Source: an archaeon
GTDB taxonomy: Archaea > Asgardarchaeota > Hermodarchaeia > Hermodarchaeales > Hermodarchaeaceae
Direction: 5' to 3'
DNA: 13,673 nucleotides
Assembly: GCA_016550425.1 (NCBI GenBank)
Contig: JABXGS010000059.1
Span: 1-13,673 of the forward strand
In this document: positions 68 to 6,812 of the stretch, piece by piece
Numbering within the stretch: the stretch's first letter is position 1
Layout: each line of letters begins with the position of its first letter
Program-made: the position numbers and the translations under genes
The notes under the pieces: model-generated
What the model saw: only the letters and a program-made list of their open reading frames with translations
Databases searched by the model: none
Told to the model about the DNA's origin: nothing

Positions 68-84
68 TGTACACAAAGTGTACA
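68..84. promoter_or_regulatory. Perfect inverted repeat TGTACAC-AAA-GTGTACA
   Basis: Two 7-bp arms separated by AAA form a perfect dyad about 125 nt upstream of the DDAH-like start. It could be an operator for a dimeric regulator or a small hairpin. A different TGTAC/GTACA dyad lies before the longin receptor (11258-11272), but with another spacing, so a shared regulator is not established. Confidence 0.3.
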
Positions 85-198
85 CGGGGAGACTTCGCAG
101 CCCAAATGAAAACGGGCACTGGAAATCGCGATGAAAGCCATTAAATCGAAGCAAATCTTTCTCTACACGCTTGAAATTACCAAAACCCATACAGAAAA
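82..198 (-). pseudogene. Very decayed actin C-terminal relic (outermost copy)
   Basis: Read on the - strand from 198, the frame gives FSVWVLV, then a stop, then RKI-CF-DLM. This can be laid on actin YSVWIGGSILASLKTFQRM with identical S, V, W, K, F and M. The remainder has little similarity, although a stretch near 35-58 resembles the actin codons for QGAGV. The Tyr/Phe codon ends at 198 and the next + gene starts at 209, the same 11-nt offset as in two clearer relics. That offset is the main reason for calling it. It is the weakest of the six copies and could be chance. Confidence 0.4.
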
Positions 199-208
199 GG
201 AGTAGGCA

Positions 209-964
209 ATGATGTCTCAACATGCTTTGGTACGAGAACCCGGAGCCCAATTTACTCGCTGCATTTCTTCTCACCCATTACATCACACCGTCAATGTTAC
301 GCGAGCACAAACTCAACATGCAGACTACATTAACACGTTAGCCGAACTCGGGTTTGAAGTCATTCAATTACCTCTTGACGATACCCACCCAGATTCTTGT
401 TTTGTAGAAGACACCGCTGTCATCCATTCTGGCAAAGCCCTCATAACCCGCCTTGCCAAGAAGAGTCGTCGAGGCGAAGAAAAACCAGTCGAGGAACTGC
501 TCCAAGAGTACTTACCGGTGCAACGCATCATGGCTCCCGGCACCCTCGAAGGAGGGGATGTCATTCGGTTACCCACCCGAATAATTTGCGGGATTAGCCA
601 GCGTACCAACCGTGCCGGCGTGGACCAGATGCAGACCTATTTTGGCGTACCTGTCAATCCCATTGTTGATCCCCGCCTCATTCACCTGAAAAGCCATGTC
701 ACCTACCTGAACCATAACATCATGCTTACCACCCAACCCTACACCAACCACCCAAGCCTATCCGACTTCGACAGCCTCATAGTCCCCAAAACCGAGCAAT
801 ACGCGGCCAATACCCTCACCATCGATGACACCGTGATCATGCCCACTGGATACCCACAAACCCAGCACTTAATCAAAGAAAGGGGGTTTGACATCATCTG
901 TTTAAACATGAGCGAATTCGCCAAATGCGACGGCGCCCTTACCTGCCTGTCCCTCCTCTTCTGA
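209..964 (+). CDS. Dimethylarginine dimethylaminohydrolase (DDAH)-like amidinotransferase-fold hydrolase
   Basis: The 251-residue protein matches the DDAH family. Known members hydrolyse N-omega-methylated arginines to citrulline and a methylamine in the cytosol. Visible motifs are the substrate-binding DSCFVEDTAV (residues 62-71), TLEGGDV (112-118), the catalytic His in HLKSH (H159), and the C-terminal nucleophile Cys in DGALTC (C246), which sits five residues from the end as in bacterial DDAHs. The length is normal. The start is ATG 209 because AAAAGGAG lies 6 nt upstream; an ATG three bases later is possible. It stands alone, between the outermost actin relic and the relic at 1025. Its third codon positions are C-rich, like the other accessory genes. 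Related arginine deiminases share the fold, so the exact substrate is inferred. Confidence 0.88.
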   Translation: MMSQHALVREPGAQFTRCISSHPLHHTVNVTRAQTQHADYINTLAELGFEVIQLPLDDTHPDSCFVEDTAVIHSGKALITRLAKKSRRGEEKPVEELLQEYLPVQRIMAPGTLEGGDVIRLPTRIICGISQRTNRAGVDQMQTYFGVPVNPIVDPRLIHLKSHVTYLNHNIMLTTQPYTNHPSLSDFDSLIVPKTEQYAANTLTIDDTVIMPTGYPQTQHLIKERGFDIICLNMSEFAKCDGALTCLSLLF

Positions 965-975
965 ACAACACACTA

Positions 976-1017
976 GAAAAAGAGAGAAAGGGGAAAACAC
1001 GCCTCCCAGATAAAAAA
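976..1017. repeat. Relic of actin 3' region (GGGG...CCTCCC hairpin), copy at 976
   Basis: An A/G-rich run, GGGG (990-993) and CCTCCC (1002-1007) followed by A-rich sequence match the 3' region of the living actin gene (6771-6804). The bases GAGAGAAAGGGG are identical to those in the copy at 4391. On the - strand it reads as a weak stem followed by T-rich sequence. Confidence 0.65.
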
Positions 1018-1024
1018 TGCCACT

Positions 1025-4962: not shown

Positions 4963-4978
4963 AATCACCAATAATAGT

Positions 4979-5020
4979 AAAAAAAAGGGGAAACACAACC
5001 TCCCAATTACTGAAGACTGT
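4979..5020. repeat. Actin 3' region repeat, copy at 4979
   Basis: A-run, GGGG (4987-4990) and CCTCCC (4999-5004), then CTGAAGACTGT before the relic. This is the same order as in the living actin 3' region, but the stem is weaker. Confidence 0.65.
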
Positions 5021-5134
5021 ATAGAAGCACCGGTGAATCACACCAGCGCCTTACTCCATATATTCCTTCTTCGTCATTCACTGGCCTGTAGGTGTGTGGT
5101 TTTAATCGCCTTTTCCTGAGAACCATAACGCATA
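5021..5134 (-). pseudogene. Actin C-terminal relic (innermost copy), stop codon lost
   Basis: The - strand reads TKKEYME-stop-GAGVIHRCFY against actin TKKEYMEQGAGVIHRCF-stop: CAG has become TAA and the final TAA has become TAT. Upstream, PTGQ-stop-M aligns with KTFQRM (two residues missing after M), and YALWFSG at 5134-5114 aligns with YSVWIGG. Seven other codon differences in the tail are synonymous, so this copy evolved as a working actin before dying. The next + gene starts 43 nt from the Tyr codon, farther than in three other relics. Confidence 0.88.
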
Positions 5135-5176
5135 AAAGCAAACCAAAACCCGCGCCCCGCCACAGGTGAACCTACC

Positions 5177-5620
5177 ATGCAAATCGATTTTAAAAAACTT
5201 TCAAGCATACTCACTGAAGACGAATTGGATGAACTCGATGCCGCAACTCATCACATCATGCGCTTCAAATGGCTCGCCGACGACTGCCACACGTGGGATG
5301 ACATGATTCAAGCCCTCAAGGACCGAATCACCTTCATTCAAGACCTCAAAAGCTGTGATGCAGAAATCCTCGACAACAACAATGATTACATCTTCTACGA
5401 AATCCCTGGCGAACAGGCTATCTTCGCCACCCTCACCACCCTCACAGACACCGAATGCACCTTCCAACTCGACGACGACACCACCATCATCACCCCACGA
5501 CCCGACTGGACCGACTTCACACATCACCACCTTCAAAGCCGCCTTATCCTCCATTTCACTAAAACCGGCGACCTCAACGGCGTCACCATCCCCCACCACT
5601 GCCAGAGCGACACACCATGA
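5177..5620 (+). CDS. Unknown acidic protein coupled to the endonuclease-like gene
   Basis: The 147-residue product has no family I recognise. The N-terminal third is acidic and probably helical (LTEDELDELDAATHHIM, then a DDMIQALKDRITFIQDL helix). The C-terminal part looks like beta-strands with many Thr, Asp and His. AGGTGA lies 6-8 nt before ATG 5177. Its TGA overlaps the ATG of the next gene (ATGA at 5617-5620), so the two are translationally coupled and probably work together. It could be a partner or control protein for the endonuclease-like protein; that is inference only. Confidence 0.75.
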   Translation: MQIDFKKLSSILTEDELDELDAATHHIMRFKWLADDCHTWDDMIQALKDRITFIQDLKSCDAEILDNNNDYIFYEIPGEQAIFATLTTLTDTECTFQLDDDTTIITPRPDWTDFTHHHLQSRLILHFTKTGDLNGVTIPHHCQSDTP

Positions 5621-6750
5621 CCACCCCAATCCCCTACTTTCCCAAGAAATGCCCAACCTGCCCAATTTACCACCTTCGCCAAACAACCCAACCAGGCATT
5701 AAAGCCACTTACCAACGCAAATTTGACATCATCACCGAACTCCAAATCGTCTGCGACTACACCTGCAACGAAAAAAGCAGTCCACAACTTGCTGTAGAAA
5801 AAGACTGCACCCAAGACACTATCCAAAACATCGTCCGCCGATACAATAAACCCCTCCGTCCCCTCCGCGACGCCCAACTCATCCGCCGCGGATCTAAAGA
5901 GCAATCATTTCCCCTCTCCACCGAAGTTCCTAAACTCCTCCAATATTCCAAGGTAAAGCCCTTCCTGCCGCAACTCATCGCCATCATGCTTCTCACCGAC
6001 GGAGGTGCAGGTAAACGCAAAGGTCGTGGGCATTACATTACCTTCACTAACAAGGCCGAATCCCTTCATGCCATCTTCGCAGACCTCATCCATAACTATT
6101 ACAATCAACCACCTTCTGCTTATTTCAAACCCTACTGGAGCAAACGAAACAAGCAAGGTCACAAAGCTTACTATACTACCTACAACCGCAAGTACGACAC
6201 TGAGATCATGCTTAACGACCTTCTCAAACTCAGTCCCACCTACAGAACTCGACCAAGACGAGGACAAACCTGGGAAAAATACCTCAGAGAACCAACACAA
6301 CCAAAAATCCAATTTCTCTACGATTCGAAAATTCCGCACAATGTTCATAGCTTTGGAATTCGACTAGCAATGAGTGCAGAAGGATCCATTAGTCCAATCT
6401 TCAAATTAGATAGTAGATTTCCTTATCCGCACCTTACTTTTGCATGTAAACATCCAGAACTCAAAAATCAATGGAAGGACTATTTCAAAACGCAAGGATT
6501 TTCTTTTAACAAAACTAATGAAATGATTGAAACAGCTCAGATTCGAATGGCTGACAAATTTTTGAAAATTGGTGGTTTTATCAAGGGTGTCAAAGTAAAG
6601 ATTAGTAGTTATTACAGTGGACTTGACAAGCAATCGGTTCTCAAGGCTATTGTCCTTGACAGAAAGAACCATCCAATTCCTTTGAAACTCTCCAAGCAGG
6701 AAAAACACAAAATCCTACGTAAACGGGCAATACGATTCGAGGAAGCCTAA
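5617..6750 (+). CDS. LAGLIDADG homing-endonuclease-like protein with N-terminal zinc-finger/HTH region
   Basis: The 377-residue protein has a Cys set CPTC (12-15) and CDYTC (46-50) that may bind zinc. A helix-turn-helix-like segment follows (about 55-78, LAVEKDCTQDTIQNIVRRY), then two LAGLIDADG-like helices. The first is LIAIMLLTDGG (120-130, acidic D128) and the second is GIRLAMSAEGS (247-257, acidic E255). The 127-residue spacing fits a double-motif monomeric endonuclease, and both acidic residues are present. Such enzymes cut a long specific site and spread their own gene by repair. It is free-standing, not inside an intron or intein. Its stop lies 63 nt from the actin stop, in convergent orientation, and its last codons (FEEA) are part of the repeat. 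Codon use changes sharply near 6310. A transcription-factor relative of the LAGLIDADG family is possible. Confidence 0.7.
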   Translation: MTTPIPYFPKKCPTCPIYHLRQTTQPGIKATYQRKFDIITELQIVCDYTCNEKSSPQLAVEKDCTQDTIQNIVRRYNKPLRPLRDAQLIRRGSKEQSFPLSTEVPKLLQYSKVKPFLPQLIAIMLLTDGGAGKRKGRGHYITFTNKAESLHAIFADLIHNYYNQPPSAYFKPYWSKRNKQGHKAYYTTYNRKYDTEIMLNDLLKLSPTYRTRPRRGQTWEKYLREPTQPKIQFLYDSKIPHNVHSFGIRLAMSAEGSISPIFKLDSRFPYPHLTFACKHPELKNQWKDYFKTQGFSFNKTNEMIETAQIRMADKFLKIGGFIKGVKVKISSYYSGLDKQSVLKAIVLDRKNHPIPLKLSKQEKHKILRKRAIRFEEA

Positions 6751-6812
6751 CTTCTGCTCAACCGATAAAAAAAATGAAAAAGGGGAGGCAAGCCTCCCAA
6801 AAAACAGCCACT
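6734..6812. repeat. Actin 3' region (parent-type copy) with the FEEA-stop codons
   Basis: It covers the last codons of the endonuclease-like gene, GCTCAACC, the A-rich run, the perfect GGGAGGC-AA-GCCTCCC dyad and the bases up to the living actin stop. Copies at 2151 and 2950 share all these parts. The copies at 976, 4391 and 4979 share only the A-rich run and hairpin. Confidence 0.8.
6771..6804 (-). terminator. Actin transcription terminator: hairpin with T-runs
   Basis: The dyad GGGAGGC-AA-GCCTCCC (6783-6798) is perfect. On the - strand it is preceded by six Ts and followed by CTTTTTCA and eight Ts. Archaeal termination mainly uses T-runs. This lies directly after the actin stop. Confidence 0.75.

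Follow-up and report, generated by a model that had tools for sequence, protein, structure and literature searches.

Serial gene units and relic actin tails at the 3' end of an actin gene in a Hermodarchaeia-like Asgard contig

Introduction

Elements that replace the end of a host gene are described from fungal mitochondria, where mobile open reading frames (ORFs) exchange the C-terminus of Allomyces atp6 and of Glomus atp6, atp9, cox2 and nad3 (Beaudet et al. 2013, PMC3630166). As presented there, these ORFs are of the LAGLIDADG or GIY-YIG type, bring a foreign C-terminus and strand the native one; a LAGLIDADG endonuclease ORF is present in three of the four Glomus genes, and the atp6 tails are less alike in DNA than in protein, with 63.5% nucleotide and 91% amino acid (aa) identity (PMC3630166). 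Here we analyse a stretch of 13,673 nucleotides (nt) from an Asgard archaeon (GenBank assembly GCA_016550425.1, contig JABXGS010000059.1, positions 1 to 13,673 of the forward strand; hereafter the window, meaning the whole of this stretch), in which cargo genes lie between copies of the 3' end of a living actin gene. We argue that these copies, which we call relics, are former actin ends stranded by the serial insertion of cargo units.

Elements integrated by tyrosine integrases at gene 3' ends restore the gene end, and the old end stays behind as a distal repeat. The actin arrays differ from such islands in that no integrase was found on the array, where tyrosine recombinases were searched for, and in that no constant end sequence was found among 11 Hermod unit ends, the two endonuclease units apart. 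With integrons, as the Asgard ones are described (PMC9668308), they share ordered small units, growth at the end nearest a fixed anchor and similar kinds of cargo; unlike integrons, they hold no tyrosine recombinase in the array (PF00589, 21 genomes), and the repeated site is an actin tail plus terminator. The Asgard mobile element HeimM2 encodes a homing endonuclease-like protein and is inserted beside the 16S rRNA gene (PMC8813620). It resembles the actin locus in combining an endonuclease-like gene and cargo at a conserved host gene of an Asgard archaeon, but it does not lie in a protein gene, and the available part of that report describes neither a replaced tail nor a relic array.

By analogy, we judge the closest known kind to be the endonuclease elements of fungal mitochondria, which replace gene C-termini. 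As in the published fungal cases, a gene 3' end is duplicated, the living gene runs onto the inserted tail and the old tail lies stranded downstream. In the fungal cases the stranded tail is native and the new one foreign; here a relic and its flank are orthologous to the living tail of a relative, and a foreign new tail is clear in L116 but not in the Thor-like average. The fungal elements as described carry the endonuclease ORF between the tails. Here one was found in the proximal units of the window and of genome G002, but neither in the other window units nor, as far as this family goes, in the Thor-like arrays (G, C and L numbers are our handles for genomes, contigs and loci). The actin arrays further differ in their archaeal chromosomal setting, their target, their unrelated cargo, their length of up to five relics and their inclusion of a terminator region, and in that most units have no endonuclease. 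No description of actin-tail capture was found in searches of open-licence PMC papers on Asgard actin, mobile elements and homing endonucleases.

Results

Relics of the actin end in the window

The window is a Hermodarchaeia-like Asgard contig and its actin is a clear Asgard actin, identical to that of Hermodarchaeota FT1_005 at 344 of 345 positions over residues 3-347. A first-pass annotation, made from the sequence alone, had proposed that the DNA below this gene holds five clear relics and a possible sixth, each of the last ~38 actin residues, with the actin 3' hairpin region in every clear copy and one gene or gene pair between consecutive relics. The actin gene, its putative insertion site and the relics that we recovered are as follows.

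6813..7958, - strand: living actin gene, 381 aa, anchor and target of the array (Pfam Actin, 448 bits)
6838..6885, - strand: putative insertion site, -23 to -70 nt relative to the end of the actin coding sequence (CDS), from DNA alignments of relics
6783..6798, - strand: terminator hairpin of the living actin tail, from sequence and repeat families D1-D4
4967-5081, - strand: relic 5, tail and terminator region, with an in-frame stop in the tail (score 47.5)
4382-4487, - strand: relic 4 (score 50.5)
2943-3078, - strand: relic 3 (score 74.5)
2154-2292, - strand: relic 2 (score 71.0)
958-1098, - strand: relic 1, degenerate tail with recognisable terminator (score 37.0; terminator 26.5 against a shuffle maximum of 21.5)

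The last 300 nt of the actin CDS and the 90 nt downstream were used as the query for local DNA alignment to the DNA below actin. This recovered five copies of the actin 3' end, all on the - strand, with scores of 37-74.5 compared with 15 for the reverse complement, 13 for upstream DNA and a maximum of 21 among 200 dinucleotide shuffles, bearing out the five clear relics and their shared orientation with actin. All five alignments reach 55-88 nt beyond the last codon and cross the terminator region. The tail alone exceeded its shuffle maximum of 17 in four of the five relics (36, 36, 40 and 39) and scored 10 in relic 1; the terminator alone exceeded its maximum of 21.5 in three (38, 35 and 26.5), with only 18 and 20 for the relics at 4967-5081 and 4382-4487. 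Relic 1 is thus identified through its terminator and not its tail. The terminator region is present in every clear copy as judged by the extent of the alignments, and is significant on its own in three. The relics are also shorter than proposed, comprising ~15-23 codons of actin (left edges at -45 to -70 nt in the window) rather than ~38 residues. The possible relic at 82-198 was rejected, as it gave no match by DNA alignment or by tblastn of the last 45 residues. The gene content of each gap confirmed that one gene or gene pair separates consecutive relics.

Filled and empty alleles in related genomes

Five related genomes share an array flank (L160, L107, L117, L116 and L136). In L160, actin is followed by a ~400 aa ORF and then by a relic, and in L107, L117 and L116 this ORF stands after an additional unit and relic. 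The living tail, terminator and ORF of L160 align with relic 1 and the ORF of L107, L117 and L116 at 274/333, 279/331 and 279/331 nt, and these alignments stop 33, 33 and 30 nt, respectively, before the end of the actin CDS. The additional unit in these three genomes is probably one shared insertion. One step further from actin, the relic of L160 and its flank match the second relic and flank of L107 (466/569 nt). In L136 the ORF lies further from actin, with no relic seen before it. A second pair shows the same arrangement, as the living tail and 183 aa ORF of L113 align with relic 1 and the 183 aa ORF of L106 at 283/350 nt, stopping at -49. Nucleotide identity in the filled and empty pairs is 81-84%. 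These pairs indicate that each new unit enters next to actin, ahead of the unit already there, and turns the former living tail into the relic. The first-pass annotation had suggested looking for relatives that have fewer units and an actin still contiguous with its old tail; such relatives exist, and they support its proposal that cargo units were inserted serially into the actin 3' end.

The new tail can be foreign. Between the L116 and L160 actin genes there are no differences from -213 to -86 and 16 differences from -85 to -13, a pattern that points clearly to a foreign tail in L116.

These filled and empty pairs come from other Asgard genomes, and the corresponding support in the lineage of the window comes from array turnover among Hermod genomes. 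Contig C65 of G001 carries three relics and, inside this array, a DDAH gene, homologous to window positions 102-973 (82% nucleotide identity over 878 nt), and its other cargo comprises an SBF-family transporter, Staygreen, an epimerase and a cation efflux protein. Since this cargo differs although the actin protein is nearly identical to that of the window, the arrays have turned over.

Relics across Asgard genomes

A profile of the last 26 actin residues was searched in 227 Asgard genomes and gave a tail match in at least 184, of which 39 and 31 were followed up. With regional fetches and DNA alignment added, tail relics on the same strand and downstream of actin were found in at least 23 of the 227 genomes, namely the Hermod genomes G001, G002 and G005, G116, and 19 others including the Thorarchaeota G211 (L076) and G207 (L077); genomes are called Thor-like here from their actin tails. 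G001, G005 and G195 have relics on contigs without an actin body. In the set of 31, tail matches lay in actin-sized or larger frames, except for shorter frames in G131 and G024 and a chance-level match in G009. The architecture is present on a 2.58 megabase (Mb) contig of G214 (L131; score 50 against a control of 15.5), and a short relic was found in the Lokiarchaeota (Loki) locus L068 (score 62 against controls of 20 and 17.5). Array cargo in these genomes includes HepT-like/nucleotidyltransferase and DUF5615/DUF433 pairs, GNAT, nitroreductase and VOC proteins, all of them types of gene that cassettes also carry. One array unit includes a class I lysyl-tRNA synthetase (L115:9764-11389). Relatives of actin were found neither in viral contigs nor in phage records.

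Left edges were compared for 32 relics from 20 loci with the living tail on the same contig, and all 32 lie between -23 and -70 nt of the actin CDS end. Those of L107, L116 and L117 (-30 to -33) probably go back to one event, and the 32 are therefore not all independent. The two weakest are those of L114, with scores of 25.5 and 23.0 against 15.5. Held apart from this set were L068 (-24, -21), loci whose edges were measured against a relic or the window actin (L102, L103, L110/L150 and L197), weaker or terminator-only matches (L016, L048, L050/L142, L052, the third of L108, L124, the second of L131, and L146) and longer actin pieces (L109, L121 and L159). In L103 the weaker of two DNA matches (25.0) falls below the upstream control (27.0). 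Among the longer pieces, G084 has two similar actin tail pieces that begin at -141 nt, both without an actin body (L109:788-929 and ~6209-6349), and G131 has a 5'-truncated actin frame of 191 codons (L159:2437-3009, actin-sense). At L121:2841-4953, a 373 aa actin-like gene lies 991 nt after actin and its last 19 residues equal the neighbouring actin tail, which looks like tail conversion.

Independently of relics, two living actins, as we read them, carry short inserts at the spot where relic junctions fall. In the Hermod genome G002 (L087, ~1560-1600) the insert is 30 nt long with two in-frame stops (fold z -2.0), and in Loki LW60_4 it is 31 nt long (L078:6550-6580, fold z -3.5); a second insert of 30 nt in L078 lies at ~6600-6632 (fold z 0.2). 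These ~30-nt inserts could be bulge-helix-bulge introns in a protein gene.

Actin compared with other genes

We compared actin with other genes of the same loci by asking for a copy of the region from -60 to +60 around the CDS end within 6 kilobases (kb), at a score of at least 36. Over all loci, 20/97 actins and 8/1,064 other genes had such a copy. Twelve of the 97 actins came from loci fetched for relic matches and all 12 were positive, compared with 1/111 other genes there. Loci chosen without regard to relics, and excluding the window, gave 7/84 actins and 6/941 other genes. By set, the counts were 4/12 and 2/94 in the Thor-like set and 1/7 and 1/82 in a set with some loci chosen for short frames; in the window they were 1/1 and 1/12. 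Ten loci were omitted as repeats of the same contig (L105, L110, L111, L129, L132, L142 and L147-L150). An excess at actin is thus present, large in the Thor-like set but small where Loki loci predominate; some other genes are positive too. Three of the eight positive non-actin genes (L102, the window and L127) belong to arrays themselves.

Of the other five, those in L010, L013, L060 and L131 could be tandem paralogues or further tail duplications. In L159, the gene after the truncated actin frame of G131 has its own 3'-end copy 2.7 kb further on.

A candidate homing endonuclease in the actin-proximal unit

The unit nearest actin, taken as the newest, holds a protein of LAGLIDADG type and has the following features.

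5082..6812: unit 1, a 147 aa ORF and a LAGLIDADG-type protein
5093..5157, + strand: 65-nt leader of the endonuclease unit, beside the old tail, common to the G002 endonuclease unit
5177..5620, + strand: 147 aa ORF directly upstream of the endonuclease ORF, no family
5617..6750, + strand: 377 aa LAGLIDADG-type homing endonuclease candidate, motifs LLTDG and MSAEG, with an N-terminal helical domain

The ORF at 5617-6750 matched no Pfam family. In an alignment with 20 homologues (21 rows), an aspartate or glutamate precedes each of the invariant glycines G129 and G256. The AlphaFold2 model has a mean predicted local distance difference test (pLDDT) of 89.6, and its top Foldseek matches are LAGLIDADG enzymes (1p8k, 2ab5, 6x1j and 2dch; E 2.8e-6 to 1.9e-4), with query template modelling (TM) scores of only 0.33-0.37; the archaeal intron-encoded I-Tsp061I is among the best matches. 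The predicted structure and alignment thus support a LAGLIDADG fold with two motifs in which the glycine follows an acidic residue. A 408 aa homologue, encoded by the actin-proximal unit of G002, scored 75-80 bits against a profile not containing it, so that a LAGLIDADG-like protein is present in both Hermod arrays that show this unit. Relatives of the 377 aa protein, and the leader pattern, were absent from viral contigs.

The leaders of the window and G002 units align with a score of 47, compared with at most 14 for all other pairs of 11 unit ends. Related leader sequence is present in G001 and G005 (scores of 29 and 41; reverse-complement controls, 7 and 10). On C56 of G001 it adjoins a 538 aa protein that matches LAGLIDADG_3 at 20.0 bits (E 8.6e-4), below the Pfam cut-off of 22.5. 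On C20 of G005 (L195:4665-4738) it adjoins a frame resembling, by eye, the C-terminal part of the 538 aa protein, and that frame may be an endonuclease remnant. The G005 leader and possible remnant lie between genes that by eye resemble Spt5 and ribosomal L11, and no Spt5 tail duplication was found beside the leader (14.5 against a control of 10.5). In G177, a distant LAGLIDADG homologue (L176:4303-6530) is flanked on either side by a copy of a zinc-ribbon gene's 5' head (39.5 against 20.5), perhaps a head-replacing mirror image. Flanking direct repeats around distant endonuclease homologues were present at one of seven loci and, in a wider test, at the same one of eight, the seven other loci showing nothing similar.

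Cargo of the older units

Beyond relic 5, the window holds the following units and genes.

4488..4966: unit 2, glyoxalase/VOC protein at 4567-4962 (Pfam Glyoxalase, 9.7e-19)
3079..4381: unit 3, DinB-family protein at 3858-4331 (- strand) and 128 aa ORF at 3151-3537 (- strand) between 35-nt inverted repeats
2293..2942: unit 4, 215 aa ORF at 2318-2965, no Pfam family; the ORF end overlaps the terminator region of the relic
1099..2153: unit 5, Ras-like GTPase at 1238-2149 (Pfam Ras, 2.6e-29; weak N-terminal Zn_ribbon_3, 0.011)
209..964, + strand: DDAH-like gene beyond relic 1

The inverted repeats of unit 3 (3134-3168 and 3786-3820) are 94% complementary and 617 nt apart, and with the 128 aa ORF that they flank they are perhaps a small transposable element that landed in this unit. 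Six of the eight ORFs listed here and for unit 1 point towards actin, as do 30 of 43 (at least 55 aa) among those listed from 15 other loci. PADLOC returned nothing for the four window proteins given to it, and no tRNA or Rfam family was found in the window.

Discussion

Weighing this evidence, we consider serial insertion at the actin 3' end to be established in the relatives of the window and strongly supported in the window itself, with the endonuclease as a likely, unproven agent. On balance we favour the view that at least five units were added serially, at a site probably opened by the candidate LAGLIDADG homing endonuclease. Each unit would bring a replacement actin tail, a terminator and one or two cargo genes, and would strand the previous tail as a relic. 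The candidate enzyme may cut an actin allele at about codons 358-374, and repair of the break may draw on donor DNA whose one side is paired with the actin body; the tail, terminator and 3' flank of the donor would thereby be copied in, and the other side would join the cut old tail. Because the new tail keeps the protein sequence, actin would stay usable and could be targeted again. Where a unit has no endonuclease, one acting in trans might have brought it in, or its own might have been lost. More tentatively, the arrays may represent an Asgard gene-capture system built on actin, in which a homing endonuclease replaces the integrase and the tail and terminator are the module that every cassette carries; actin would then, equally tentatively, be the head of a growing array whose stranded tails record the order of capture.

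Several observations weigh against the endonuclease-driven account. A profile search found the endonuclease family in 7 of 227 Asgard genomes, in no array genome except G002 and in no Thor-like array, and the profile gave no trace of an endonuclease in the older window units; the 538 aa protein of G001 likewise escapes this profile, which may thus have overlooked further endonucleases. Since leader and junction are common to the two Hermod endonuclease units, these may be one insertion, not two. Relic left edges scatter over ~47 nt rather than marking a single cut position. In the least selected set, mostly Loki, the excess of 3'-end copies at actin is small (2/65 actins against 3/765 other genes). 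A general signal of co-conversion was not found in Thor-like actins, with third-position divergence of 0.254 at the end and 0.271 in the body (46 pairs); Loki control pairs gave 0.381 and 0.210 (92 pairs). Between the window and G001 actins, third-position differences number 58/278 over residues 3-280 and 32/67 over residues 281-347 (P = 2e-5), which in itself speaks for a foreign 3' end; but the split was picked after the profile had been seen, and the best single breakpoint is residue 141, not 281, which indicates that the window actin is mosaic more widely.

The units could instead have arisen by one-sided homologous recombination without a dedicated nuclease: donor DNA, environmental or conjugated, would pair with the highly conserved body of actin, its other end would join illegitimately and the donor's actin 3' flank would be imported. 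Both the foreign tail of L116 and the lack of endonuclease family members in Thor-like arrays fit such a process. Two cargo matches fit it as well and count, like the points above, against an endonuclease: the 185 aa gene of an L115 unit, beside the class I lysyl-tRNA synthetase, is matched 186 nt after the L131 actin and ~550 nt after the L146 actin, and L077 cargo matches an actin-adjacent ORF of L075 at 69%, with no relic found at L075. The joint would, however, be expected anywhere in actin, and every one of the 32 measured relics starts in the last 23-70 nt, the longer pieces of L109, L159 and L121 lying outside that set, so we consider this explanation unlikely. A tyrosine or serine recombinase acting in trans could instead insert circular cassettes with the actin tail as attachment site, in the manner of islands at gene 3' ends or of integron cassettes, which would suit the insertion beside an anchor, the small units, the cassette-like cargo and the report of integrons from Asgard archaea (PMC9668308). 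Yet PF00589 was found inside the array in none of 21 array genomes and had no match at all in nine of them (serine recombinases were not searched genome-wide), and none of 55 distinct proteins scanned with Pfam, almost all of them array-encoded, matched an integrase. Moreover, no sequence is common to the 11 Hermod cargo-side unit ends, the two endonuclease units excepted, and the left edges of relics vary; a recombinase of this kind seems quite improbable.

The relics also bear on two further explanations. Tandem actin duplication, followed by truncation of all copies but their tails, finds a parallel in L121, where actin is accompanied by the 373 aa actin-like gene with the same last 19 residues. 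The relics elsewhere are uniformly short, holding 23-70 nt of CDS rather than random lengths in 32 of 32 cases, with unrelated cargo between them, and in the filled and empty pairs a unit has appeared between actin and the gene that formerly followed it; we therefore reject tandem duplication, which we rate as very improbable. Repeats misjoined in metagenome contigs could be suspected, since several contigs end in or just after the 3' half of actin (G001 C21, G002 C9, G005 C30, G183 C8 and G226 C132), as a repeated tail would cause. Independent assemblies nevertheless show the same architecture, the 2.58 Mb contig of G214 among them, and the relics have diverged from the living tail. An assembly artefact is accordingly rejected as a general explanation, the chance of it being negligible.

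If serial insertion into the actin end is correct, actin, the gene through which Asgard archaea are tied to the eukaryotic cytoskeleton, would also serve as a landing site for genes passing between lineages, among them toxin-antitoxin-like pairs, acetyltransferases, detoxification enzymes, small GTPases and transporters. The relic array would be a readable fossil record of these captures in order, and the actin 3' end, since it can be foreign, is a warning for trees. The locus would also offer a testable archaeal counterpart of the fungal mitochondrial endonuclease elements that replace gene tails.

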